This document shows positions 1,034-54,779 of a DNA stretch of 64,000 nt, in pieces. The notes beneath the pieces are model-generated. The model saw nothing but the letters and a program-made list of their open reading frames with translations. It searched no databases and had not been told where the DNA came from. The position numbers and the translations under genes are program-made. This DNA is from Phlyctochytrium arcticum (taxonomy: Eukaryota > Chytridiomycota > Chytridiomycetes > Chytridiales > Chytridiaceae): contig JAHLKI010000003.1 in the NCBI GenBank assembly GCA_025602905.1, positions 1,240,001 to 1,304,000 on the forward strand, written 5' to 3'. The first letter of the stretch is position 1; every line of letters starts with the position of its first letter.

Positions 1034-4000
1034 ATGACCGATTTACATAGCGATTTCCAAGACGTTGACGTCGATTCTGAAGCTAACGCCAATCTCGACA
1101 GCCCCGGTCTCTGCAAGGTCGAAAGGTGTACCCGCCAGGGTAAGAGAGTCGCTTCGTATGCCGCAGGCTGCTTGAAATGCCAATGTAAATAAGCACCGAA
1201 TTACTATACTCGCAAACTGGACGACATCCCTTTCCTACAAACCCAAGGCGTCAGATTGAAGTGCGATACCAAACAGAACTGGGCTTTACAGGCAGTCTTC
1301 TGCAACAAATGTTTCAAAGCCTTTCAAGAGCGGTTCCCAGCAAGGTTCCCGCCCGCATCATCTCCTTTGTCTGTCGAGTGTGCTACTCAAACTGATGACA
1401 TAACAGTCACTGAGGATGCGGATCCGATGGACATTGATTCCCCGGAAATCAGTAACCAATGTCCAGCAATTCCCACTATTGTAGAAGGGACAAAATGTCC
1501 TCGCCAACAACCTTTCGATAAACCTCAGCCATTTGCCAAACACTTGGAGGACTTTATCGATCATCTTGACAAGAACTGTGACAATATGGCAACAAGAATG
1601 GCCTTGTTTCTCGGGTATACATCCTCCTGGCAAGAACATGTTCAGCGAAGAACGAGAGCGGTCATCGTCGCGATCGTTTTGCAGGGCGCAACTTTGATAG
1701 ATCACAGCAACAAAATCAACTATGTCAAAGAGCACTTTCTTACAAAAATCAGATCTATCTCTGATTCAGATAAAGAATCTGTTTTGGCACTCAACATGGG
1801 TTACTCGCCAATAAGCTGGATGGAGAAAAGAGAGGTTAACATTGAGGCCCACGAGGCTGACCTGGACGCTAGAGTTGCTAGCCGGCGAGGAAGTCATCAT
1901 CCTCAAACTTGACGACTTTAACCGCGTTCGTGTGCGCGGCACTCCCGGTTCAGCAAACACTTCCAAATTCTCAGAATCGTACTCTCAGGCTAACTTGGCT
2001 GCCAAGTTTTTTGAGAAAGCACCTTCCTACATCTACGAGGATTTTGGCGAAACTCTGGCTCCGCTTCCGAAGCCACGATCTCCTTACATTGACTTCAGTG
2101 CAATGTGCGAACCCATCCCACCACCTAAGGATGGTGAGAAGGAGAAGGATCCTATGAAGGATTTTGTGATGGCTGTGCTGCCACCTCATGTCGGCGTCTT
2201 GCCATTCATGAACTTTGTCGATCATTTATTACAATCTCTTGATGACCGCAAGTTTCGAACGTTGTACCAATTCGACCTTTCAACAAAAGCTGCACAACTC
2301 AAGATTTCAAGGCTTTTGGGGCCGTCCCCAAGAAAATGAAAAGTTGGCAGGATGTTCTTGAGCTCGTGGAGAAAATGCGGGTTTTTATCAAAAAGTATCC
2401 GCTTGGTTGCGTATGGGTAGTAGGAGACTACTACGTCTGGGTCAACGTCTTGAAAGCCATGTGGGGTCAGCCCGATCAAAGTCTCCGTGTCGCATTTTTC
2501 CCTTGGCCTGACGGTATGCACATAGCACTCAACGCACAACAAGGTATGTGGACACTGAGTGATAGTCCGGCAAATTGCTAATGAAGCGCCTGTAGCTCTC
2601 ATTCTCTGGAACTACGGTCTGTTTATGCCCATATGGGGTTCGGCATTTCCGAACTTGGCGGTTCCGGTGGTGAAGATGCGGCCGGAAAGACGTGTCATGC
2701 TACTGTCCATGATCTTCCTCGCGTGGAACGAATGTCGGAAGGTCGTGAAAGATTTGTATGAGAAGCGTCGTGGCCAGATGAGTGACGTGCAGCGGGTGGT
2801 GGTAGAAGCACTGATGCAGCTTTATGATGAAGACTTGCCGATGGCCCTCGATGCCGGCAATGTTATGGCATCTGGAGATCTGGATAAGTATCGAGATGTT
2901 GCCACTCGCCTCCTGCCGTTTTTTATCAGATATAGAAAAAAGAATTACGTCAACATCATTCTTTACATTCTCGCCAATCTCGAGCGCTTCAAGAATATGG
3001 GCAAGGAAGAGGTATTGCGCGCGCTGCGCAGCTTTCTCCCTTGGGCGAGCTCGGAGGACTTGGAAGTCTTCCACTCCGTCATCAGAGCTGCCATAAGACC
3101 ACATGACTCTGAGAGCGCCGCGGCCATTACTACGATGTACCTCTCGGCTACGTCCGACATTGGCTCTTCGGATTTTTTGGCCGAGATCAAGCGGCAAAAT
3201 GTACTGGAGCGCGAAAATCACTGCGCCTATTCCCAGATGATGAGCTCATTTCCTGTCAACGATGCGTCTCGGGGTACTTCCGGCGGTGGCCGTTCTGTCT
3301 ATTACAATGAAAAACTTGCCACCATGGCCGCGCACCTGAAAGACATGTTCGAGCGCATCATGGCAGTAGATGGCAGCTTCTCGATCAAGGGCGGAAAGTA
3401 TAAACAGCACTCGGCTACCAAGAGTACGATGCCCGGCTACGAGCTTCGCAGTGACATCTCTCCGCCCGACGCCCTAGAGGCCAGTCCTCCCAAGCGAAGG
3501 AAAGATAATGGAACTACTGCTTTTGTGAAGCCCGCTCCAGGGGTCTTGGCAGTTATCTCAGAGAGGATTCTGCCTCTACCTTTCTGGAGCGCGGACTTAA
3601 AGCTTGGTTCGGTCATGGAGCTGGGGACGTACAGGGCCTACGACTTCTCCGAGCATCCTATGGAGCGCCAGCCTCTAATGGACATTACGCCAAGCCCGAA
3701 TGCCGTCGCTGCCCCTCCTACTACCACTACTCCTCCTGCCCTCAGTACTCCTGCGATCCCAGTTGTCCCCGCTTCTACCATTACGCGTATTGTTCTCACT
3801 AGTTCTGCTACTCCCAATAGGCGCATTATTCTCACCAACAAAGCTACTCCCAATCAGCGCATCATACCCACTACACCACCCAGTACGCCCAACAAGTCTA
3901 CCACCCCTGCTACTCCCGTCACCCCACCCACTACCCGCACTTGCAAAGTACCCGTCACAGAATGGCTCACGGTGGATGCATTAGTCTGTGACAAGATACC

Positions 4001-4178
4001 TGAGTGTCACTGCGATGCATTCAAGAATTCCCTGTGCGAGCATCTGTTGGAAGAGGTATGCGTGCCACACTTCAAGAACTGGGTGAAAAACCTGGCTTGC
4101 ACTAGCGTGGAGGTTGAGGCAGAAGAAGGAGCTGGGGACTTCGCCGCAGACAGGGACGAAAATGGGGAGGAAGAATGA
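1034..4178 (+). pseudogene. Transposon protein with cysteine-rich head and DDF/GDYYVW/HIALNAQ core
   Basis: Exon 1 starts at ATG 1034 (MTDLHSDFQDVD) and ends at 1184. A ~63-bp intron (GTAAAT...CCAAG) leads to exon 2 at 1248, joining Cys-rich sequence CQCVRLKCDTKQNW and CNKCFKAF. Further motifs are IILKLDDFNRVRV (~1896), CVWVVGDYYVWV (~2408), WPDGMHIALNAQ (~2508), an intron at 2540-2594, then MRPERRVMLL, RYRKKNYVNIILYIL and SSEDLEVFHSVIRAAIRPHD. The C-terminus has a Thr/Pro-rich stretch with TPNRRIILTNKATPNQRII repeats, then Cys/His residues. Acidic D in LDDF and GDYY could be catalytic (inference). Frame changes near 1880 and 2335 indicate frameshifts or unseen introns, so the copy is probably dead. 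Domain order matches the 22921-25388 copy residue by residue in several blocks. Confidence 0.7.
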
Positions 4179-4649
4179 AGTTCACACGCGTTCGTACGCA
4201 TCTTTCTCTGTCGTGTTTTTCGTCTCTCTTTCCGGTATTTTCTTATACATTTTGTCTTCTTCAGCATCACTTTTAATACACTTTTTACCCTGCATCGAAA
4301 AGTATGTATATTGGAGGTCCTTACCATGTGAAGAACTTAATGCACACCTTCGAGTCAGAGCAACCCGCTGGGCAAATGAATTCAACATATGTATTCAGCA
4401 ACCCTTTAACGTTTCAGCCCCTCAGCGCCGATGCAAAAAAAGTTAAGCTTATTTTTGTGGAAAACGTGGGGGTGGAGAAATCAGATGCTACATCATAAAG
4501 ATGAAGACGGGCAAGATATGCGAGGGTCCTCACATACAAAAGTATCTGCAAAAACCGGTCCAAAACAGACTGTGCAATTCCAGGTCGATCGGAGTAAGTC
4601 TCATATACAAAACAAAAAACAATGGGAAAAGACTATAGGCGTCATTTAT

Positions 4650-4675
4650 CCTTATCGAGCACTAACGCCCTGGGG
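4650..4675 (-). repeat. Right terminal inverted repeat of the 604-4675 transposon
   Basis: 26 bp ending CGCCCTGGGG, a perfect inverted match to 604-629. It is followed directly by the second TSD copy GGTGCT at 4676-4681. Confidence 0.95.
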
Positions 4676-4681
4676 GGTGCT

Positions 4682-4900
4682 CAGATAGACGTTATGTGGG
4701 ACCACCCATCGATTGTCCAGCGGCACGTTCTTGACCAACACGCTTTCCCCATCATCCCGACGTCAATATTTTGGATACCCTTGACCGTCATTGGATGTGG
4801 ATGCTCTGAATTCATGTGGGAATCCCTTTGAACATTTCCCATCCTCCATACATGTCGCATTGGGGAATCCAATACCGCAGGGTCCATGCATCATATTCCT
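4682..4900 (-). pseudogene. Helitron replication protein, upstream part, split from the piece at window start
   Basis: Minus-strand reading gives MMHGPCGIGFPNATCMEDGK, then CSKGFPHEFRASTSNDGQGY, PKY, stop, RRDDG, and finally LVKNVPLDNRWVVPHNVYLS up to base 4682. This is the canonical Helitron order ('HGPCG..CM.DGKCSK.FP..', 'GYP.YRRRD', 'LDNRWVVP'). One in-frame TGA replaces an expected residue of the YRRRD block. The last codon before the junction continues in frame into the piece ending at base 597 if the 604-4675 element and one copy of its target duplication are removed. Upstream the fragment stops in 4900-4960, where a truncated Copia element abuts it. Dead gene with a nonsense codon, an insertion and a truncation. 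Confidence 0.9.
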
Positions 4901-4964: not shown

Positions 4965-6297
4965 CTATTTTGCCGACTTTGATACGACGCACACTTCACA
5001 AAGACTGTTAGGCGCTGTCCCAGAAACTTTCACCCCTCTTGCCACTATTTCCAGCTTCTTTGCATCCCGATAATTCAAATGACCCATTCTCTGATGCCAC
5101 AGAGCCAAATCCAGCGGCGCAGATGAGGGAACTGCAATTGCCGCTAAGTCCATCCTCGGATGCAAAATATAAAGACATCCCTCACGATGGGCCCCAAATG
5201 CCACTTGACCTGCTCGATCGTATATCCGACAATCCTTGTCCGTGAACTGCGCAGTTGCTCCCGCGGCTGCCAATTGGGAAACCGAAATCAAATTCCTTTC
5301 CATACCGGGGACATGCCATACATCGCGAAGCGTAACTGGCACACCCGTAGCCGACCGAAATGTAACTGACCCAAGGCCAACTGCATGAAGAAGCCGATCA
5401 TCCGCCAGACGAATGGGGATTGGTGACATGGTCGAATAGTTGTGGAACCAGTTTCGTTGCCCGGTCATATGTTGAGACGCGCCGGAATCAACTATCCATT
5501 CGGCCGGTGACGATTTGGAGACGATCGTAGCGGCAAACATGAATCCTGCTTGTGCGTGATTTGCTTCACCCCCGTTTTTATGCATGGAACAATCCTTCTT
5601 CAAATGTCCATTTTTGCCACACCTGTAGCATCGTGGCCGTTTCTTCCCCTTTCCTTTTTGGACCGGCGCCGACGCTCCTCCAAAAAATGCTTTAGCAGGC
5701 GAATCACTGCTGGAACCCGCGTCATTGAGACACTCCGTACGTCGTACATCCTCTGCCAACAGCTTGTTTGTGACAAAATCCACCGTCAAATCCGTAAGAT
5801 TTTCCAAACTTTGTAATAGCACATCGTCCGGAAGTCCACAAAGCAGCATCAAGGCGTGGTCTTCATCCGACACCGGGTAGCCAATGTTTCTGAGTTCGTC
5901 GGCAATCAGATTGGCTTTCCTGAGATGATCCACCATAGAGGCACCTTCCTGCAACCGTAGGTTGTGGAACTTTTTCCGTAAATGCAACCGACTTGCTGTG
6001 CTCTTCTGTTGATAGATGGCTTCCAATCTGCTCCAAAGCTTGCTCGGCGATCTTTCCCCTTGAATTATATGAGATCTGAGCTTCCGTCAAGGACCCCAAG
6101 ATTGTTGTAAGAGCCTTCCGCTCAAGTTTCTTTGGTTTGTTGTTATATGGTTCCTTGGGGTCGACCATGTCCCCATCCACATAATCCCAAAGTCCTTTCT
6201 CATCCAACACCATCTCCATCTTGTACTTCCACGACGAGTAGTTTGTTCCGTCAAACTGAGCCACAGGCAACCGGTCAGCTTCGTTATCACTGCCCAT
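4965..6297 (-). pseudogene. Copia gag-protease-GAG_pre-integrase fragment
   Basis: Starts at ATG 6297 (MGSDNEADRLPVAQFDGTNY), followed by SSWKYKMEMVLDEKGLWDYV, typical of the UBN2-type Copia gag head. A frameshift near 6020 moves into LEAIYQQKSTASRLHLRKKF. Then come a CCHC knuckle (CYRCGKNGHLKKDC), the aspartic protease active site (EWIVDSGASQHMT), the LRDVWHVPGMERNLISVSQL block and the GAG-pre-integrase motif LWHQRMGHLNYRDAKKL with CEVCVVSKSAK. A TAG at 4965-4967 and loss of downstream homology end it. The family polyprotein is usually about 1300 residues; only about a third is present. Confidence 0.88.
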
Positions 6298-6638: not shown

Positions 6639-6921
6639 CTAAGACGCGTCGCGGTCTCGGCTTGCGCCGCTTGTTGTTCCCACATGCAGCAGTGCGCAGC
6701 ACTTGCTCCGAGGTAATGATGTCATGCCGAGACGCGTTGGGGGTCACGTGTTAAGCCTCACGCGAGCAAGACAAGCAAAGTCGAGAGTTGGGTCAAGATT
6801 GAGGGAATGCTGAAACTAAACTACAAGGCTACTAGGACAAGGGTAATCCCAAAGTGATGCTGGGGACCAGGACTATCTATCGGAGGATACCAAAGGTACT
6901 GACAGACTCCATTCTGTCACA
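6639..6921 (-). repeat. Putative partial Gypsy 3' LTR with polypurine tract at its edge
   Basis: On the minus strand, AAAGTGGGGGAG (6922-6933) is followed by TGTGACAGAATGG, the usual arrangement of a polypurine tract and LTR start just downstream of a chromovirus integrase. The LTR would run down to 6639, where the Copia LTR begins. No second LTR is available for comparison, and the integrase frame overlaps the tract. Confidence 0.45.
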
Positions 6922-8448
6922 CTCCCCCACTTTAACCACGACGCTGGCTCCTCTTAACTCCTCCAGGGCCGGGCCATCCAGGACGCTCTTTTCCGGTTCC
7001 CAAGTATTGTGGTGGTCCGGCCAGTTCAGCCATTTGACTAGGTATTGTTTTTGGCGCCGGTAGGTACGGGATTCAAGGATCTTCTCGCCTTCATAGAATG
7101 GTTTGCCTTCAATGATTTCCGGTGATGGACATGTTGGTACTTTGCGGGTGGGGAAGTCGTCGATGGGGTCGCGGTATGCTTTCAGCAATCGCACAATGAA
7201 TACTGGGTGGACTTTCATTGACGGTGGCAACTGTAGTGTGTAGTTTTCATGGGCATCGGTGTCGGTAACTTCATAGGGGCTAATCCACTTGGAGAGTAGT
7301 TTTTGGGTCAGCCTTTTTACTTCTTCGGCTACCTTGATTCCTTCTCTTGACAGTAGAACTTTGTCACCGACTTTGAACTTGGGGGCTGGTCGAAGATGGG
7401 CGTTTGCTTTGCGAGCTAGCTCATTTTGTGCATTCTGGATTTGGTCCTTAGCTATGATCAACAGGTTCTCAATGTATTGCACATGTTCTTGGGCCGATGT
7501 TTGGTTTCTGCGGTTTGCTGGAACGAGCTCTTCCGATGGCGTGTTCGGGGTTCGAAGGTGTTGTCCATTTTCCAGGTAGAACGGGGTAAACTTGGTGGTT
7601 GCTAATTCACTGTTGTTGTATGCAAATTCGGCAAACGGTAGTAATTGCGACCAGTTTGTCATGTGGTGGTCAACAAATGCTCGGAGGAAGGTCTTGATAG
7701 TTCGAATGGTGTTCTTGGCTTGGCCGTTGGTCTGTTGATGTCTTGCAGTGGCAATACCTTGTTCACATTGTAACAAGTTCATCAATTCTTTCCAGAAGGC
7801 GCTTGTTAGTCTTGTGTCTCGGTCGGAGATAATCTTGTCCGGGAGTCCGTGATGTTTGAAGATGTTGTGCCAGAATAGTTCAGCTACCTCTTCCGCACTG
7901 TCCGTTGTCTTACATGGAATCAAATGAGCTCGTTTCGACAAACGATCCACCACTACCATGATGGCATCGTATTGGTTGGGGCCTGATACTGGCAATTCTG
8001 GCACGAAATCCATCGAGATTTCAACCCACCTTCTATCTGGAATCGGGTGCGGTTGAAGGAGACCAGCCGGAACTTGCTGACTTGGCAAATTTCTCTGGCA
8101 TGCATCACAACTTAGGACATACTTCTTGACGTCTTTGTACATCTCGGGCCAATAGTAATAAGCTGCTAAAGCTGCAAATGTCTTTGCAACTCCGAAGTGT
8201 CCAACGAAATTGGGGTCTTGATGTGTTTCCAGTAATTGCAAACGAAGTTCAGGGCTATCCGGGATATACAGTCGATCATTATAGTATAAAAGGTCATTGC
8301 GTGTGGACAAACTCTGAAGACGGTGTGCTAGCCGTTTCGGAATCTTTTCTTCGGGGTTCTTCAGGTATTTCACAATCTGCACCAACTCATCATCATGTTT
8401 GGTTGCTTCCGTGATGAGTTCAGTCAGCAGTGCGGCATCAATAGCCAA
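6877..8448 (-). pseudogene. Ty3/Gypsy chromovirus integrase with C-terminal chromodomain
   Basis: About 520 codons. The order is HHCC zinc finger (HQDPNFVGHFGV ... CDACQ), integrase core with first Asp in EISMDFVPELPVSG and second Asp in KIISDRDTRLTS, then HQQTNGQAKNTIRTIK, GPY-like C-terminal region and a chromodomain (YEGEKILESRTYRRQKQYLV, WLNWPDHHNTWEP). In the family the third catalytic residue sits in NGQAE; here it is Lys (NGQAK), so the DDE triad is broken even though the frame is open. The enzyme would insert cDNA and target chromatin through the chromodomain. Upstream pol (RT, RNase H) is absent; sequence changes near 8500 to Tc1. The sequence may belong with the gag-protease at 13.2-15.7 kb (same strand), but this is unproven. 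Confidence 0.93.
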
Positions 8449-31169: not shown

Positions 31170-34105
31170 GTTCTCCCACTGGGAGACGTGTTTTAGCCTT
31201 TTTGGGACAACTTTTTACGCGGTGTACTCTTTCAGTCTCTTTGTGCACTCAGATGTGTTCTCAGAGCCTGAAACCACAGCCTCGGGCACCGTCCTCGGCC
31301 ATTGCGTTTTGACAACACTTTCGTTTAACAACCTTTGTTTATACTCATGCAATCATCGTCCTATAAAAGTACCTCGTTTACGCATGCATCTTGACCACTG
31401 CTCTCACGCATACAATTGTTGACAACCTTCAGATGGGCTTAGATGTTGATGCTAGCCTTGTATAGTGAAAAGGAACCAATGTAGTAATAGAAATGTTCAG
31501 CAATATATTGAGAAATGGCGAACTAAGCGGAAATGCAAAACCATTGAAATCTGAACAAAGAACTAGCCTAATGGTAACTGCTGACGACTTGCTGCTCTGA
31601 AAACGCAAGGTTAGAAGGCCATCTGTGTACCACGTCCGAATGCTTGTCCGAGATGTGGCTGAGTAGTTCTGGCGACCAAAACCCCGCTCCGCCGTCCATT
31701 CTTTTCAACAAAAAGAGCCTGCCCCAAACCAACACAATTCTCAAGATGGACGTCCCGAATAATTCCCAAGTGGCTGCCCCCAATGATCCCCAAGTGGCTG
31801 AGATCATTGTGCCCAGCGCAAGACCGGAACCTGAAGTTGACGCAGCCAGTTCTCGTCAGGCCATCTCCACGACTGGGTCTGATCAAACCATCATTCTGCC
31901 TAGCAGTCGTCCAGCTCACGCAAATGACGCCCTCCTAGCCAATGCCATCATCGCCCAAGCAGCAGCCCGTCATAGCTCTTTGATTCCAGAACCCGCACCG
32001 GACCAGGAATTTGCGACAATGGAGAAGGGCATTGACGGCATCAAGCTCTATGCGCTTTCTCAGGGATTTGCGGTGGTAGAGAGGCGCAAGGTTCAGTGGG
32101 GTACCCCGAAGATCATGCAACAAGTCCAGTTCCTCTGTGCTCAAGGGGGTTCGCCTCCACTAAACGTGCCGAATTCGAAGAGGAAGCGGGAGAGCAAGAA
32201 GGTGGCATGTCCCTACATGTTAAGACTGAACTTAGTAAATGGAGTTTGGAAAATTACGCAGTTCGGAGGGCAACATGACCGACACCAAAACCACCCATAG
32301 AGAACAACCGTAGAACTCGCCAGTCTTCCTGCAGCGAGACGAGACACCCAAAAGATTGCGGATGGCGTAATCCTCAACAAAATCATCGAGATGTACGCAG
32401 ACGCTCGTATGCTGGGAGAGATTGTCCCGTCGCTGGGGGACTCGAATCCGGATAGGCCCATTTTCATTGTTGCGCGTGATGTTTCCAACATTATTGCACG
32501 ATTGCAAAGGAGGGAGCTTGGAAGAATGTCAATGATGGAAGCTCTATTGCTAAAGATCCGAGAGACCCACCTAGTTTCAGACTCTACTCTCAAGTTGTTT
32601 TGGTCAGCCGACGGGAATCCCAACGTCGGCAAGTACGCGGACGTTGTTCTAATTGACACCACGTATCAGACGAACAAATACAAAATGCCCATGATGCATG
32701 CAGTCGGATTTGACGCGACCAATAAAACGTTCTCCATTGCATTCGGAATTGTCGAGCAGGAAGAGTGTCAGGATTACGTTTAGTTCGTACGTTTGTTGGA
32801 AAGGGTGCTGGGGAGGGCCCCTACCATTGTCGTAACGGATCAAGAAAAGGCGTTGATTGGCGCACTAAAAGGCGTCTGGCCTCAAACCAAAAGACTGCTT
32901 TGCCGATGGCACATCCTCCTCAACATCAAGTCGAATTGCCACAAATACTTTGTTGAGGCGTCCGATGGTAATGCGGAAGCGTACACATGGAAGCAGTTTG
33001 AAAACGATTGGAAGTTCCTACTGGAGCAGCGGACCGAAGATCTCTTCAACCTGACCTGGAACGAGATGAAGAAACAACTCAGTCCCGAAACAATCAGATA
33101 CATTACTGCGAACAAGTTACCATGGACAGAACACTTCGCCGCCTTCGCCACCAACCGACTCAAGCATTGCAGGCATACAGAGACATCAACTTGCGAAAGC
33201 CAGCACCGACGCATTAAGGAGAATTTGAAAAACTCGGTGGGAACTCTCGCTCACACCCACAAGAAAATTTGCTTGATGGTCGCGAGTATGCAAATGAAGG
33301 CCGAAATACGTTTCAACAATGAGATCAATGGCATCGTCACCACATTCAGTTTGATCTTCCTACCTCTCCAGCAGAATGTCTCCAGATTTGCGATTAATCT
33401 GTCCTACAAATCCTGGAAGAGCGTGGTTGAAGCGATCGACGACGGTGACGTGGAGTGTCGTTGTACGCTTTGCAGCGTTTACGTTATCCCGTGCGGCCAC
33501 GAAATCTTAGATACACTCGAGAAGAACGAGAAGCTGAGCTATCGACTATTGGACGCGCGGTGGTACGTAGTGGAGGAACCCCAAGACGCCGTTATTGATC
33601 CCGACATTGCTGGTGCCAAGGAGCCGGAGCAAAAGCAAGGAATTGGAAGGGCCCGGAAAAACTGGAAAGATCCCCGTATTCATAGCCGCGGTGAAGACAT
33701 CGGGAATGACGATATGTTCATTCAAACAGAGGACGAGGAAGACACACCGACAGCGCCGGGAGACGCGCCGATGCCCGAATCTGACCCGGAGTCAGAAGAC
33801 GAAATTTTTGACTTGAGCAATGACGACAACGACTACATGGCGGATTTACTGGAGTTGTGCGCCAGTGTGGAGAACATGGAGATGGAGGGTGAGGCAGTTG
33901 ATGGCGAGATTGCGAACGCGTCGGATCTTACCCTGGATGTAGCAAAGCCGCCAAAGAAACGTCGCTGCACGGGATGCGGGTCCCCTGAGCACCAGGACGA
34001 TCATGTTCTGAAGAAGTGCGGAAAGGTGCGCAAGGCTGTGGTTGCAAAGCCTTAGGATGCAGGACGAGGACGCGGAGGACGCGGAGGAAGGGGCCGTGTT
34101 AGTGG
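31170..34105 (+). mobile_element. MULE copy A
   Basis: From about 31170 (GTTCTCCCACTGGG) this copy shares its whole 5' region with MULE copy B at 44007, including GGACAACTTTTT and CTTTTGTTTATACTC-like blocks, so this point is probably the 5' terminus of the family. It carries a transposase gene to 34055 and an RGG-rich readable tail to about 34105. I could not find a matching inverted repeat at the 3' end, so the right boundary is open. Confidence 0.7.
31746..34055 (+). pseudogene. MULE transposase, copy A (nonsense mutations)
   Basis: ATG 31746 (MDVPNNSQVAAPNDPQV). A FAR1/WRKY-GCM1-like DNA-binding region holds RKRESKKVACPYMLRL and HDRHQNHP. The MULE core reads ADVVLIDTTYQTNKYKMPMM (first Asp), APTIVVTDQEKALIGALKG (second Asp), LLCRWHILLNIKSNC (the C/H block after it), and TSTCESQHRRIKENLKN. 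A SWIM finger (VECRCTLCSVYVIPCGHE) and a CCHC knuckle (RRCTGCGSPEHQDDHVLKKC) follow. Compared with copy B it has TAG for AAG at 32297 and TAG for TGG at 32780. After the final TAG (34053) the frame continues with GRGRGGRGGRGR, possibly a lost C-terminus. Confidence 0.92.
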
Positions 34106-44006: not shown

Positions 44007-45947
44007 GTTCTCCCACTGGGGGACGCGCTATATCCTTTTTAGGACAACTTTTTCGTTGGTGTTCGCATTGCAACCTTTTGTGCTCCCATGTGCGGATGAA
44101 CCACGGCTTTGGCACTGTCCTTGGCCATCGCAACTTTTTTGTTTAACAACTTTTGTTTATACTCCATTAGCAATCGCTCTCAAATGTGTGCTATGCATCC
44201 GGATCACACTTTCCCATATAAACCACATGTGAACAGAGTACTGACTGAACCAAATGTGAACACTCGCATTGTAAAACAAAAAGAAATCATTGTAGTAACT
44301 GAATTGCAGTGTATTGAAAAAAGGCGAACTAGATAGTGACGCAAAACCGTTGAAATGTAAACAAAGAACTAGCCTAGTGGTACATGTCGACGCTTGCTGT
44401 TCTGAAAATGAAAGGTTAATAGTAAAGGCATCTGACAAATCATACCACGTCCGAATCCTTGTCCGAGATGTGGCTCAGCGCTGTTTTGCAACCAAAACTC
44501 CGCTCCGGCCGTCCGATTGCCACTCAGGTTCGCCCCATTCTTCTGAATCGAAGAACCTGTCCAACACCAACACAACACAACACCCGAAATGGAAGCCGCC
44601 AATTCTGCAGACACAGCTATCGCACGCCCCAGCGCAAGACCGCCAACAGAGGTTGCCACTGTGGTCGGGTTGACCCCCGAACAGGCAATCGTTCTTCCCA
44701 GTAGCCTGGCCGCCCCTCAAGCTGCTTTGGCAAATGCTATCATCGCGCAAGCCGCATCCCGCCACGCTCCATGGTTTCCTCAAGCTGCGCCGGATGTTGA
44801 CTTTGCCACGATGGAAAAGGGGATTGACGGTGTTCATCAGTACGCGCTTTCCGAGGGATTTATTGTTTCTGAGAAGAAAAAGGAACACTGGGGCAATCCG
44901 AAAATTGTTTGTATGGTGATCTTTCATTGTTGTCAGAGTGGGTCGCCTCCAGCAAACATTCCAAACTCGAAGAGAAAGCGGGAGAGTAAGAAGGTCGGTT
45001 GCACCTACATAGTCCGTTTAAGCTTGGTTGGAGAAGTTTGGAGGATTGTGAAATTTGGCGACGGGCACTACCAGCACATCAACCATCCAAAGAGGAACAC
45101 CGCAGAGCTTGCCAGTCTGCCTGCAGCAAGAAGGGCCACCCAAAAACTTGCAGATGGTGTCATTCTCGCCAAGATTATTGATATGTACGCTGATGCCCGT
45201 AGTCCCGGTGAAATAGTTCAGTCGCTTGCTGATGACAATCCGGACAGACCGATCCTGATCATTGCTCGGGATGTCTCCAACATTGTCGCCCGAATGCAGA
45301 GAAAAGAGCTTGGAACTATGACGATGATGGAGGCGCTGTTGACGAGAATGAAACAAAATCATTTGGTGGCGGACTTCACACTGAACGCCGACCGTACCGT
45401 ACGTCGTTTGTTTTGGTCAGCCGATGGTAATCCAAACGTTAGGAAGTACGCGGATGTGGTAATTATTGATGCCACTTACCAAACCAACAAGTACAAGATG
45501 CCAATGATGCATGCTGTTGGATTCACGGCTACCAACAACACATTCTCCATTGCATTTGGAATTGTTGAGCAGGAAGAATGCGGCGACTATGTTTGGTTCC
45601 TACAGTTGTTGACGCAAGTTTTGGGCAGGGCACCTGACATTGTAGTAACCGACCACGAAAAAGGGTTGATAGGAGCCTTGAAAGGAGTTTGGCCCCAGAC
45701 GAAGAGACTCCTTTGCCGGTGGCATATCCTTCTCAACATCAAATCCAACTGCCACAAAATCTTTGTGACAGCGTCTGATGATAACTTGGAAGCATATACA
45801 TGGGCCAAATTCGAAAAGGACTGGAAGTATATGTTGGAGCAGCCGACAGAAGCCCTCTTCAAACAAGCCTGGAGCGAGATTGCGAAACTTGTTAGCCCAG
45901 AAACAATTCACTACATCACATCCAATACGCTGTGGCTATCTCAATGA
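44007..45947 (+). mobile_element. MULE copy B, 3'-truncated
   Basis: Starts GTTCTCCCACTGGG at 44007, the same terminal sequence as copy A at 31170, and follows it through the 5' non-coding region and gene. Homology to copy A ends at about 45940, where minus-strand Copia sequence begins. It sits inside the DIRS element, whose RT is cut at 44006. Confidence 0.8.
44589..45947 (+). pseudogene. MULE transposase, copy B, open frame but truncated
   Basis: ATG 44589 (MEAANSADTAIARPSARPPT) opens about 452 codons with no internal stop: FAR1-like zinc region (RKRESKKVGCTYIVRLSL, HYQHINHP), the MULE core ADVVIIDATYQTNKYKMPMM (first Asp), APDIVVTDHEKGLIGALKG (second Asp), LLCRWHILLNIKSNC. It then breaks at ITSNTLWLSQ just before the third catalytic acid. 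SWIM and CCHC zinc domains of copy A are absent. It contains NADRTVRR where copy A lacks these residues. Being free of nonsense codons it is younger or better kept than copy A, yet cannot transpose alone. Confidence 0.9.
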
Positions 45948-49135: not shown

Positions 49136-49398
49136 ATGATCTTCCAGTGGGGTGTTACGAATTTCTGGTAAACTAGTATGGTACGGGTTATATCTAGTAC
49201 AGGTACAGGTGTATTTTGTGCGGCTGGTACAGGGTACAGAGTAGTTGTACCTGTACCAGCAAGGCCTTCCTGCGCCACCTGTACCAGGAACTTTCCGTGC
49301 CACGCGTGGCTTATCCGGAAAAAAGGGGCCGGCATGCGGTCTGGTATGCCGCACTCGGTAACAAGTTTCTCCCGCCAATAGTTTCAACTGGCGGCACG

Positions 49399-52300
49399 AT
49401 GTCAGAACCTCCGACCGGCGGAGGTGCGAGCACCCAGGTATGCTAACTTCGAAAAGCCTGCCTATATTCTGCCAATTATACTAACTATTTATTCTCAAAA
49501 TTTCCAGATCATTGACGTAGACGATTATGTTATTCCTAAGAACGAAAGAGTCGCCAGTTGCATCAGGACCACGCAAGTAAGCATTTCCCGAAACTGAATC
49601 CGAAAGGGCCGAAAGAACCTGCCTTTAATTGGGCCAAAATTGTGCTAACCTGTATTTCCAAAAATTTTCAGATCATTGATCTTGATGACTTTAACTTTAC
49701 TCCTGCCAAACATGAAGCAAATGCTAGCTCAAACAGCACGCAGCAGGTAAGCTAAACTTTGAAAGAGACTTGTTTTTTTTAATTTCGCAAGAATTATGCT
49801 AACTATATTTTCTGAAATTTCTCAGATCGTTGATTTAGAGGATTTCACTCTCACCACCAACCAAACGGGTGCCAGCTCAAGCAGCATGAAGGTAAGCTAT
49901 CTTTGAGAGAGACTTGTTGTTTTTCGCAAGAATTATGTTAACCATATTTTCCAAAATTTCTCAGATCATTGATTTAGAGGATTTCACTCGCACCACCAAC
50001 CAAACGGGTGCCAGCTCAAGCAGCGCGCAGGTAAGCTAACCTTGAAAGAGACTTGTCTTTTTAATCTCGCTAGAATTATTAACTATATTTTCCGAAATTT
50101 CTCAGATCGTTGATTTAGAAGTATCTACTCCCACCAGCAACAAAGAAAATGCCACCGGCTCTAGCAGCACGCAGGTAAGCCACATCCGAAACAGCTCCCT
50201 TTATTTTGGTCAGAATTGTGCTAACCATCATTTCCGAAATTTCTCAGATCATTGATTTGGATAGTCCTGATGTTTTGATCGAAGAAAAATACCGCATTTT
50301 TAAGCACACGCTTGTTGAAAAAATCATCTATGCACATGAGCCAATCGAGTATCCCCCGACATCAGAAAACGGAATTGCCATCCTTTATGATATTAACGGA
50401 TGGAAAACCACGACCGCAGCTTTTTCCAACATTCAATATCCGATCGGAAACCCTGGAGGAGGCGGAGGTTTTCTGCTATTTTTTAAATGCTCAAGTGAGT
50501 AGTATCAACGTGAATCTGACGTCTATCGGATGTCTTATTCGCAGTTTAGGTAACAAAAAGCTATCGAACCTGCAGGGGGGTGAAGATGTGTGAGCATATT
50601 TGTGAGGACATCCGCCAGATGACGCATTCGTCCGTGGATCCCGAAGAGGCTGATTTTATGAACATCGCCCGAACGACAGTCTCATCCAAAGGAAGCTCGA
50701 TTGATTGTAAAACGAAGGAGTATGTATTAATTATGGAGTGCAAATTTGCAAAAATTAATTCACGTCAAAGGTTTTTTTTAGCTAGACAAAATATGACATG
50801 CAGGTACACCAACCAGCAAGGCCATAAATGCACAGGCGGCCACATGGTTTTTCGGAAGTTTTCACAGGTAAGAGCGCTCGGCAGATTGGTCGTATGGACG
50901 CTCCTACTTACGCGTTGTTTAGCCAATGGTTCTTGCAGGCGGTGCCGCTCCCCTCAATAAATTTTGTCTGGGCTGTAGCATGTGGCAACCTAACCAGAAG
51001 CATCTAGTCGTTGTCATCCCTGACCATTACAACTTGGAGTACCTACGACGACTGGTAGAGGGCGATGAAATTGTAAATGAGCCTGAAAGCCAGCGTGACC
51101 CAACCGATCCATGCGCAACAGTTTTACTGGCGTCTTCCCGTCAAAAGTTTTGCTGTAAGTACTCATCCAATCTAGTAGCTAGTTGAAAATTCCAGCTAAC
51201 GAGTTACTGTAGTTGAGTTGCATAAACTGGATGGCGACTGGGAGCAGGGTGCAGTTCAGCCCAAAACATGCAACGTTAAATTCATCAAAGTCACACCATT
51301 GGATCTGGTCGCCTGCCCATATGTCATGGTTATTTGTATTGGCACTCATAGCCATCCCCCGCCTCCTCCTTTGACCATCCCATTCAACATCCGCCAAGAA
51401 ATTGAAGAACATCTTGCCGTAACGGAGAGTGGCACGCTCCAGCCCCGACAAATTTTTGGCAGAAAGTTTCTTCAAACGTGGTTCAGGTGAGAATGACAAC
51501 ACGAGTTGTATATGACAGATTTCTGAGTCAGAAATAGTCGTGGAATGCAAACGATTGCTGCTGAGTTCCATCCAAGTCTGAACCAATTATCGTCGGTGAG
51601 GCGTCTTGTATCAGCGGAACGTCGTAGAAGAGATCCGTGGGGCGAGTCTGTTGTTGGGGTTATGGCCGAGCTTTATAAGCGTCAAATGCAAAGGGATGAT
51701 CCGGACGCTTGTTATATCCGAAAAGCTGGTCAGTGAAGCGCATAGAACGGATCGGCAAGTTCGTATACTGAAATTGACTACGTGTTACTTTTAAGATTTC
51801 ACCAGCAACAACAATTTGATCGTCATCTGCGGAACCAAAAAGCAAGTTGAAGCCCTGCAGAGCAGCGAGGAGATTCTTGTCGACATGACCTTCAAAGGTA
51901 TCCGTTCAATGAGTGGGAAGTTGCTATTAGAGACCCCGACGTTGATATCGATCCCTCAGGTGAGTACGGTATGACATACAACCTTAATGCGCCATGTGCT
52001 AAGACCGATTTCTCCCAACAGTCTTGGCTTGTGTCAGGATAGCCACAGATGACCACGATGCTGAGACATACTGCCAAATGTTTGAAATGATCAATTCTCT
52101 GTATCGCCAGGAAACTGGAAGAGGCCTTCGGTTCTCTCACATTCATGGCGACGAGGAACCTGCCATCAGCGTGATTATGGCCGACCTGGACGGCGGTCAA
52201 TACAAAGGTTTGGGGTTATTTTTGGAAAAGTTAACGGCAGAAACTACCAAGATGACATGGTCTGAGCACCTTTTGCACATTTTCAAATCCTGCGTGGTGC

Positions 52301-53434
52301 ATTTTAAGAGGTAAAATCCACTGCCAAATGTCCTTCAATTGAGTTAACCGTTGCTTCAGAAATGTTCTCAAAAATGCAGCTGGTGAAGCCCGCATTTGCA
52401 CATTTTCAAATCCTGCGTGGTGCATTTTAAGAGGTAAAATCCACTGCCAAATGTCCTTCAATTGAGTTAACCGTTGCTTCAGAAATGTTCTCAAAAATGT
52501 AGCTGGTGAAGCCCGCATTTGCACATTTTCAAATCCTGCGTGGTGCATTTTAAGAGGTAAAATCCACTGCCAAATGTCCTTCAATTGAGTTAACCGTTGC
52601 TTCAGAAATGTTCTCAAAAATGCAGCTGGTGAAGCCCGCAAGTCTCTCCGAGCCCTAATAGAGTCTATCTGCACATACACCGATCCCGATACGATCGACC
52701 TGCTCTTCGACGAAATTATCAACATAGGTGCAGAGTCTGGCCTGAACCTGGAGGATTGGGCTGAGCTTTATAAGCAGCCCTACATTATCGGTTCATTAAA
52801 TCCAGTTTTTTCAAAAATTCCGTTGGCCATTTGGACAAGAACAAGGTATTTGGTTCGGTTCGAGGCCTTGCAATCATTCAAACAATTTTTTGACTGTTCT
52901 CCAGCAACCAGAGTAATGCAATCGAAAGCTTGCATGCCAACACCAACCGCGACTTGAAAAATGCCAGTCTGTTACATTGTATTCGGTCCCGGCACAACTA
53001 TGACGTGCGGCGTTGGAGGCAGCTTGAGTTTGGGGATCGGACGGGGGTCTACTACAAAGACCGAGTGACGGGTGTGCAGGCAACCACCAATAGGCTCAAT
53101 GTCAACGCTCGCAAGGCCAGCCAAACCCAAAGCTCCTGCCAAAGCTCCCGCCCAACCCAAAGCCCCAGCCAAGCCCAGAGCCACCACCACCAGATCAAAG
53201 AAGGGAAAGGAGGTGGTCCGGGAGGAGAGCATGCCCACTTCCAGTGCAGCCAGTTCCAGCTCGGCACCCCCCACATCAGACGTCAGCAGTAAAGATGTGG
53301 AACTCGAGACGGCCAGAGAGAAAACACGCAGCTTGGAGCGGGAGTTTTTAATCGAGGAAGAGCTTGAGAAACATCGCGTCATGGAAGAGAAACTGGCGGC
53401 GATCAAGGCCAGGAATAAGAATGCCCGAAAGTAG
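49399..53434 (+). CDS. M1-SIM: MULE-like transposase gene with tandem SUMO-interaction-like exons
   Basis: ATG 49399 (MSEPPTGGGASTQ) is followed by six exons whose products all start with I-I/V-D-L/V (49508, 49672, 49826, 49965, 50106, 50248). The seventh exon continues into the main body: HKCTGGHMVFRKFSQ, VQPKTCNVKFIKVTPLDLVA, CPYVMVICIGTHSHPPPPP, SEEILVDMTFKGIR (likely first Asp), FSHIHGDEEPAISVIMADLD (second Asp) and SNAIESLHANTNRDLK. This is the fungal MULE-like group known to me by its CPYV...HPPPPP and NRD motifs. The tail is K/A/P-rich (RPAKPKAPAKAPAQPKAPAK) with SKKGKE and a coiled coil (FLIEEELEKHRVMEEKLAAI) to stop 53434. At least ten introns of 45-100 bp are visible. Defects: a frame slip near 51905, a 123-bp triplication at 52275-52643, and a frame choice near 53100. 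TIRs were not found. Confidence 0.72.
49508..50294 (+). repeat. Tandemly duplicated exon-intron units encoding SIM-like motifs
   Basis: Exons 49508-49576 (69 nt), 49672-49746 (75), 49826-49891 (66), 49965-50030 (66), 50106-50174 (69) and the start of the exon at 50248 all begin ATCRTTGA and encode IIDVDDY, IIDLDDF, IVDLEDF, IIDLEDF, IVDLEVS and IIDLDSP. Introns share GTAAGC starts and TTTCTCAG-type ends. Every internal exon is phase 0-0 and divisible by three, so units can be gained, lost or skipped without shifting frame. Exons 49826 and 49965 differ at only a few codons (recent copy). The unit period is about 138-165 bp. Confidence 0.88.
52275..52643 (+). repeat. Triplicated 123-bp unit spanning an intron
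   Basis: Three head-to-tail copies (52275-52397, 52398-52520, 52521-52643), nearly identical; one difference seen is GCAGCTGG versus GTAGCTGG. Each holds the exon end coding IFKSCVVHFKR, a complete 49-bp intron (GTAAAATCC...TTGCTTCAG) and the next exon start. The extra exons are 74 nt each, so including both shifts the frame. Confidence 0.93.
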
Positions 53435-54284
53435 TTGTTATATGTTTTTATTGAATTTCTCACTTTGTCGCGTTCTCTCTCACAGTTACTGGGGTCACCC
53501 AGGCTCCATGCAGGGCTGCATGAGCATCCTGTGGATGTTTCGGCCATCGGAGATAATCCATCCCGCGGTTAGTGCATTCCAACTACTCCGTGTGTGGATA
53601 CGTATTGTATTTTTGCATGAGAAGAGTAAGGACAGCTCTTGCAATGACAGCCGAGTTGACGGTCTGATGCTGAAATCATCTTGCCACCAAGCGCCGACGA
53701 GTTGAGGGACAACTATGACAAAGAACCTGTACTGTCACGGCTGCTGTATGGCTGCAAAGGTTTAAGCATAGCATAGATTGGCTATTGGATCAGTCGTCCG
53801 GTCGAAGGAGGTTTTGGATGCTGCAACGTCTTTGGGGCTTGGATAGGTAAGTCGTAGGTAGTTTTTTGTTGCGGCTTGAAGGTAGGGAAGGTAGGGAAGG
53901 TGGGAAGGTAGGTTCGTAGAAGTAGAGTGTCGCTAGAATATCTGTAATCATTAGAAATTGTCGCTGTTTCAATGCTATTTTGGCTGAATATATACGACCT
54001 TTGCTCCGTTGCAAATATCCACTTTCCGGTCCTTGATGCATATTGGTTGAAGTTGGTGAGTTACTCCAGCAAACGAAAGCGAGGTCCACTGGGGCTCAGC
54101 GTCTTAAAAGAAAAATGGAGACACCCAGATTACAAACACGGAATCGGGAAACAAAGATTTGAGGGAAAGACACTTTGATGTACCTGTGGGGGATACTGGA
54201 ACGGATTTCATTCTCTTTGCAAAAGTTTAGGTTGTTATATAGTCCTGGAATCGATAGAATTAAGGTATAAAATTAGAGAATTTT
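53435..54284. other. No gene recognised; short GGTAGGGAA repeats
   Basis: Sequence after the stop of the transposase gene. At 53879-53912 the 9-mer AAGGTAGGG recurs about four times with slippage. No inverted partner of the region upstream of 49399 was found, so the element end is undefined. Confidence 0.5.
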
Positions 54285-54779
54285 TTAAGTTGCCACCGCC
54301 ATAGGCCGGAGGTTGGAGAAAATCTCCAAACGTCGAGAGCTTTGAGCCTCCGCGTCCAAAAAGTAAATTTGAGAAAACTTGGGCAGTTCCCCGTCTTCGG
54401 CCTCCAATCCATCCCCAATCCGGTGATACAGCTCACCGTTGACCCGGAAAGTGTAGATGCCATCCCGGTCGCTCGCCAAGTTCAAGTCAAGATTGCTGGA
54501 CATGCTGGTAAACGCAAAGGCTTGGTTGTATTTTCGGATGTGCGCGAGGAACTCTTTAGAGTCGTTCGAGGCTCCTGAAAACAACGGCTGTAAAGCTTCA
54601 TGTGGAGAAACATGGCCTACATCATCACCTTTGGTTTTGCCATTATGGCAGCAGATTGAAGCCTTCTCGGCCTTCCACCTGAATGCGCCGCAGCTTCTGC
54701 ACTCGCAATTCATATCGCCCGCATCAAACAGAGTTGCACTGTCCCGAAACTGCTCAATAGAGCAAATCGCAACAGCCAT
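54285..54779 (-). pseudogene. Helitron replication protein N-terminal fragment
   Basis: ATG 54779 (MAVAICSIEQFRDSATLFDA), then a CX2C-type region CECRSCGAFRWKAEKASICC, LQPLFSGASNDSKEFLAHIR, KYNQAFAFTSMSSNLDLNLA and the Helitron signature IYTFRVNGELYHRIGDGLEA with KFSQIYFLDAEAQ. This is the segment just before the Rep nuclease in fungal Helitrons. After 165 codons it ends with RRLEIFSNLRPM and a stop, so nuclease and helicase are missing. The preserved front and promoter suggest a 5' end copy or a captured fragment. Confidence 0.9.

Follow-up and report, generated by a model that had tools for sequence, protein, structure and literature searches.

In the genome of the chytrid Phlyctochytrium arcticum, the remains of a DNA transposon carry a gene that opens with a tandem array of short exons, each of which begins with the same hydrophobic and acidic motif. 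This exon array on a MULE-type transposon is genuine and unusual, and it was found in a stretch of 64,000 nucleotides that is referred to here as the window. The explanation that we favour, tentatively and somewhat short of calling it probable, is that these are the remains of a Mutator-like transposase with a tail of duplicated exons, whose motif cores would once have been selected as a multivalent set of SUMO-interaction motifs (SIMs) gripping SUMO-modified proteins. Other explanations, including neutral duplication, are weighed below alongside the evidence that bears on them.

Structure of the exon array

Six consecutive exons of one gene, at positions 49508-50294, start in phase 0 directly 3' of a splice acceptor, which reads YAG before each of the six units, and their first codons encode the pattern I-(I/V)-D-(L/V)-(D/E). 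The cores of units 1 to 6 are, in order, IIDVD, IIDLD, IVDLE, IIDLE, IVDLE, and IIDLD. Units 1-5 are in phase 0 at both ends and have lengths of 69, 75, 66, 66, and 69 nt, while unit 6 forms the head of a longer exon, which is open for 345 nt in a second long copy of the element on contig C4 (the C4 copy) and is terminated sooner in the deposited models. In the deposited proteins P0002 (window copy) and P0001 (C4 copy), precisely these exons are present, with the same splicing. The first-pass annotation of this DNA had described six exons of 66-75 nt, each with the motif first and in phase 0 at both ends. The motif and the phase-0 start stand for all six, in agreement with the deposited models, whereas the size and the symmetrical phase apply to five, the sixth opening a longer exon. 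The features of the element, including those that resemble a sibling family (family D, described below), are as follows.

49167..54292, + strand: decayed MULE-type element (approximate limits, those of the homology to the C4 copy, locus L006, by blastn and global alignment)
49197..49257, + strand: GTACAGGTAC ... GTACCTGTAC repeats in the 5' subterminal region, similar to the inverted terminal repeat of sibling family D (pattern matches at 49197 and 49247)
49399..49437, + strand: exon 1, MSEPPTGGGASTQ, 13 codons, the gene start, ending in phase 0 (from P0002)
49508..49576, + strand: unit 1, IIDVDDYVIPKNERVASCIRTTQ
49672..49746, + strand: unit 2, IIDLDDFNFTPAKHEANASSNSTQQ
49826..49891, + strand: unit 3, IVDLEDFTLTTNQTGASSSSMK
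49965..50030, + strand: unit 4, IIDLEDFTRTTNQTGASSSSAQ
50106..50174, + strand: unit 5, IVDLEVSTPTSNKENATGSSSTQ
50248..50590, + strand: unit 6 (IIDLDS...), which extends into the adjoining transposase sequence; frame unlike that of the C4 copy, where it is open
50586..53434, + strand: remainder of the transposase gene, several modelled exons, frame broken (motifs DMTFKG, DLDGGQYKG, C-x2-H-x3-N, and NAIESLH; weak Pfam Transposase_mut match)
52272..52640, + strand: 123-bp unit present three times, 99% identical, across an exon-intron boundary within the transposase; present once in the C4 copy (Tandem Repeats Finder)

The six introns of the array are 70-95 nt long, and TAAC is present in every one of them. 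The lengths of the five short exons (66, 66, 69, 69, and 75 nt) differ by multiples of three only; those of the introns (70-95 nt) do not. It had been proposed that exon and intron were duplicated together as a unit, and this is upheld by the homology of the units and of their introns and by unit numbers of six, five, and two in different copies. The description of the introns as near-identical went too far for the set as a whole: only those preceding units 3, 4, and 5 reach 89-93% mutual identity, and the remaining 12 intron pairs are at approximately 64-78%. With phase-symmetric exons, homologous introns, and a varying number of units, the region is an exon-duplicated array.

The first 134 residues contain six strict matches to the motif, compared with a mean of 0.014 and a maximum of 2 in 100,000 shuffles, although units that arose by duplication from each other cannot be counted as six independent events. 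That each exon starts where its motif starts was rejected as evidence in its own right, because this is copied along with every duplicated unit. When the whole genome was searched for an acceptor followed by the motif, 18 matches were obtained, 13 of them in the three arrays that are described here, and the reversed control pattern gave 2.

Skipping any one of units 1-5 would leave the frame unchanged, as would suit a role at the RNA level in which interchangeable phase-0 exons are skipped to adjust how long a flexible spacer is and the motif is incidental. All units are included in the deposited models, however, and the spacers diverge freely but the core does not, so we consider such a role very improbable.

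A probable Mutator-like transposase

The array-bearing gene probably encodes a Mutator-like (MULE-type) transposase. The window copy, the C4 copy, and a third P. arcticum protein (P0003) all contain the stretches DMTFKG, DLDGGQYKG, SCVVHF, and IE...H, and with them the catalytic D, D, E residues and, between the second D and the E, the C-x2-H motif. We take DMTFKG, DLDGGQYKG, C-x2-H-x3-N, and NAIESLH to be the catalytic core and signature of the MULE type. The Pfam model Transposase_mut matched the spliced catalytic piece at 12.3 bits (E 0.075), which does not reach its cut-off of 21 bits, and nothing in Pfam matched proteins P0001-P0003 at E <=1. A search of solved structures with a profile of the transposase gave no match up to E 1, and an AlphaFold2 model of P0003, built from a four-row alignment, had a mean pLDDT of 34.3 and was too poor for a search for the RNase H fold expected of a MULE transposase.

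MULE elements are expected to have terminal inverted repeats and target-site duplications of 8-11 bp. Supporting evidence is provided by sibling family D, which has an inverted terminal repeat of 43 bp (95% identity in the one copy measured) and flanking target-site duplications of 9-10 bp at both ends in two of two copies examined by eye. It comprises eight copies, seven of which share 98.3-99.5% identity with the first in the stretches that were compared, and this uniformity suggests that the family was recently active. Its loci (L014-L021 and L043-L050) include one at approximately C1:709802-714299, and its inverted repeats are rich in GTACAGGTACAGG. The likeness to Mutator-like elements (Pfam Transposase_mut/MULE type) lies in the catalytic motifs and in the inverted repeats and target-site duplications of family D, and these motifs and sibling ends support the earlier view of a fusion between the array and a MULE-type transposase. 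The differences are the Pfam match below cut-off, the presence of the exon array on the gene, and the terminal inverted repeat, which was found in neither the window copy nor the C4 copy.

Mobile elements seem to be plentiful in the window. Open frames at 4965-6026, 6877-8448, 32793-34055, and 44589-45947 resemble pieces of Copia-like and Gypsy-like retroelements and other transposases, as judged by eye.

Copies, exchange between units, and decay

The window copy is on contig C3 of the 31.5-Mb genome, and the C4 copy is at locus L006. Their homology extends from approximately 49167 to 54292, with two long blocks that are about 94.7% identical (blastn and global alignment). There are six units in the window copy, five in the C4 copy, and two in a fragment at a third locus (L007, C3:909500-918400), as anticipated by the suggestion that unit number can vary. 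Unit 3 of the C4 copy consists of the head of window unit 4 and the tail of window unit 3, and the first unit of the fragment at the third locus consists of the head of unit 3 and the tail of unit 4. Among the three copies, all four head and tail combinations of units 3 and 4 occur, which requires either that units exchanged sequence or that several sites mutated repeatedly. Judged from these copies, there has been recombination among the units as well as a change in how many there are.

No intact copy of the array-bearing subfamily was found in this genome, and both long copies are broken. The frame of the window copy, compared with that of the C4 copy, is broken close to the first catalytic aspartate as well as in the sixth exon, and again by the triplication of the 123-bp unit, which is confined to the window copy. 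Together with the exon array, this repeat accounts for two of the three tandem arrays that score at least 150 in the whole window. A triplication that spans exon and intron in the same gene indicates that tandem duplication is easy here and needs no selection or benefit. Five insertions of 5 bp, each at a TA site, are present in the C4 copy, and transposase exons contain two of them. Introns in the models of P0001 and P0002 bridge the frame breaks, and the catalytic region is consequently partly missing or out of frame in these two proteins.

All five insertions in the C4 copy (at approximately 2100-4870 of its locus, corresponding to 49437-52310 of the window) convert TA to TACTGTA or TACAGTA. 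These words are the excision footprint of Sleeping Beauty-like Tc1/mariner elements, and the window contains 16 of them compared with about 3.2 expected. A genome-wide excess of TACTGTA was considered as support for footprints and rejected, the word having 4,110 matches and its reversed control 5,751.

Several of these observations fit a model in which the array arose by neutral tandem duplication, a frame-neutral exon and its intron being copied by slippage or unequal exchange. The apparent conservation of the motif would then come from young, exchanging units that sit beside a conserved acceptor. In keeping with this are the 89-93% identity of the introns before units 3-5, the exchange seen between units, the second, frame-breaking tandem repeat of exon and intron in the same gene, and the broken state of both long copies.

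Constraint on the motif cores

Across the six window units, 5 of the 15 core sites vary, none of them at a second codon position, and the tails differ between units by 8-69%. When the core is set aside, divergence among units 1, 2, and 5 is 29-50%, and unit 6 differs from the others by 53-69%, a comparison in which its continuation may not be homologous. The introns of these units differ by 22-36%, and yet all of the units keep the pattern. In simulations of neutral change with branch lengths derived from the introns, all six cores were kept in a fraction of 0.00025 of 20,000 runs, and no second-position change occurred in 0.009 of runs. When the rate was multiplied by 0.4, a scaling that gives 4.8 variable core sites on average compared with the 5 observed, all six cores survived in 3.3% of 6,000 runs and 15% had no second-position change; at a multiplier of 0.5, the corresponding values were 1.2% and 9% (6,000 runs). 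Core retention exceeds the neutral model at the intron rate, and does so weakly when the rate is adjusted to match how variable the motif itself is.

Between the window and C4 copies, differences number 0 in 75 sites of the core, 8 in 273 of the tails, and 12 in 386 of the introns, with window unit 4 paired by choice with C4 unit 3 (itself a mixture of head and tail) and window unit 3 excluded. From the 20 differences in 659 sites of tails and introns, approximately 2.3 would be expected in the core, so the observed zero is not significant. Seven of the tail differences are non-synonymous and one is synonymous. Five blocks of the transposase give a dN/dS of about 0.63 between the two copies, which is near neutral, in a total that excludes one misaligned codon block (block e, 25% identity). 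The window and C4 copies, now broken, drift with little constraint. We read these results as moderate evidence that the core was constrained in the past, and as no evidence that it is now.

These results bear on neutral duplication in both directions. Survival of the cores in 3.3% of the scaled runs is compatible with it, whereas the value of 0.00025 at the intron rate, the retention of the pattern despite diverged tails (29-50%, and 53-69% for unit 6) and introns (22-36%), and the change in length of the five short exons by multiples of three all argue against it. We regard neutral duplication as a serious possibility, although not as the probable one. If it is the whole explanation, the array is a caution that decaying transposons can yield frame-neutral exon repeats with a plausible motif.

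Selection on the cores as SIMs, the explanation that we favour, can be set out in steps. An ancestral Mutator-like transposase would have had an N-terminal tail, disordered by composition, that was made of tandemly duplicated exons. An exon and its intron were copied several times in phase 0, and units exchanged heads and tails. Every unit has kept its core of two hydrophobic residues, Asp, Leu or Val, and an acid, as most of the other exon sequence drifted. In the live element, selection may have held these cores as multivalent SIMs on a flexible tail rich in Ser, Thr, and Asn. The transposase could then have gripped proteins of chromatin, repair, or silencing that carried SUMO, and its avidity would have depended on how many units it had.

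The motif and its possible partners

Passages of PMC12751080 define a SIM as a four-residue hydrophobic core, typically with at least three hydrophobic residues, that has acidic or phosphorylatable neighbours. The pattern I-(I/V)-D-(L/V)-(D/E) agrees with this definition in six of six units, and the likeness of the cores to the classical SIM pattern, proposed in the first-pass annotation, is sustained on the same definition. The acids follow the cores and no acidic residue precedes any of them, which, among the types given in those passages, fits the parallel type of SIM only.

The host has an intron-split SUMO gene within C11:282350-283150, on the minus strand, with exons HINLKVLGHDQTEI, AFKIKRTTPLQRLMDAYVSKTGQ, and LEMEDNDMIQVTVQQLGG and a near-terminal GG. 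A first query for this gene returned nothing at E 0.001, and a second located it by a weak match (E 0.04). Four matches to SP-RING (zf-MIZ) in the host were over the cut-off.

Comparison of the whole array with solved structures gave a single match, to a LIDL-rich stretch of GTSE1 (6qnp chain H), at an E of 0.38 that is not significant; this stretch, we assume, binds clathrin. A query of two units also gave a single, insignificant match, to an IST1 homolog (E 0.99). GTSE1 has a similar repeated motif of two hydrophobic residues, Asp, and a hydrophobic residue, but its motifs have Leu first. Taken with the degeneracy of the pattern, this match means that the pattern by itself names no partner. 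The array might accordingly be a multivalent set of some other short hydrophobic-acidic motif, for example one that is clathrin-box-like (L-hydrophobic-x-hydrophobic-acid) or that contacts the transcription machinery, and both structure matches and the degenerate pattern lean in this direction. However, a clathrin box requires Leu first and the first residue here is always Ile; moreover, a transposase acts in the nucleus, where SUMO binding is the commoner use of VIDLT-type cores. We therefore judge a partner of this kind to be unlikely. SUMO binding is plausible, and is probably the best single guess for the motif.

Known proteins offer partial parallels to the selected SIM array that we favour. 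RNF4 has four closely spaced SIMs (passages of PMC12751080), and proteins of this type resemble the array in having several close hydrophobic-acidic motifs in the N-terminal region. They differ from it in that no RING domain was found here, each motif has its own exon, the array is fused to a transposase, and the SIMs are candidates by sequence. Several SIMs recruit the chromatin protein ZMYM2, according to the title of a reference in PMC12751080, although this is an animal host protein and the likeness rests on the idea and not on sequence. A DNA transposon has also been tied to the SUMO pathway in the case of Sleeping Beauty, whose host factor HMGXB4 is SUMO-modified (PMC10138897). There the modified partner is a host factor, and the passages of PMC10138897 concerned describe no array of motifs on the transposase.

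A stronger form of the proposal is that multiplication of a single SIM-bearing exon made a transposase that binds poly-SUMO, and that its number of SIMs, and hence its avidity for SUMO-rich chromatin or repair foci, would shift by recombination between repeats. We hold this to be rather unlikely as a complete account. To our knowledge, the means by which eukaryotic transposases find or avoid host chromatin are known for few elements. If the proposal is true, SUMO-binding valency would be laid out as a countable exon array, so that this question could be tested directly, unit by unit, and the array would clearly exemplify how exon duplication can multiply a short linear motif.

Distribution among relatives

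With the N-terminal domain as query, 24 matches were obtained in the genome, three of which come from the window and C4 copies. The strict motif was found near the gene at none of the 21 other family loci, some of which are short or partial (weakest E 6.5e-4) and may be missing their own start. The scan covered bases 1-1750 of each of 22 loci (L010-L031, L013 being the window copy), which extends at most 1.5 kb upstream of the match. One strict match, at position 328 of L021, is upstream of the start of that element's homology (at about 999). Since these 21 matches have no motif near the gene, the family does not need it. Other families have different N-terminal pieces that are acidic or rich in Ser and Thr, some of them as short phase-0 exons with limits set by eye. 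In family D, for example, the N-terminal exons are MSSNSSNPTVIESLDK and then LTDQVRESPPPDVAAATVNLTTNE, again with limits by eye.

When the array region was compared with a collection of 5.8 billion proteins, only P0001 and P0002 were matched at E <=10, among 3,394 candidates. The protein searches for homologues, in which 7,988 and 7,996 candidates (in both cases those sharing most words) and 3,394 candidates were scored, returned only P0001-P0003 of P. arcticum and P0004 of Rasamsonia byssochlamydoides. As far as these searches reach, the array appears to be limited to one subfamily of one species. The idea of a general targeting or defence-evasion strategy goes beyond what these results show, with the array near the gene in 0 of 21 other family matches, nowhere else in the protein search, and on two long copies that are both broken. 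Among the matches listed in literature searches, no SIM array on a transposase was found by title or abstract opening, and nothing on MULEs of chytrids or on the P. arcticum genome was found by title.

P0004 has 24% identity (E 2.4e-17), and no such array was seen in it by eye. Its host is an ascomycete, which suggests that the transposase family is wider than the chytrids. Within P. arcticum, two relatives (L012, C5:1189822, and L022, C2:1314318) represent another family, which starts with MADPQDGIDLTISDGED and has a single, weaker SIM-like stretch and an apparent second, diverged exon that is alike, as judged by eye.
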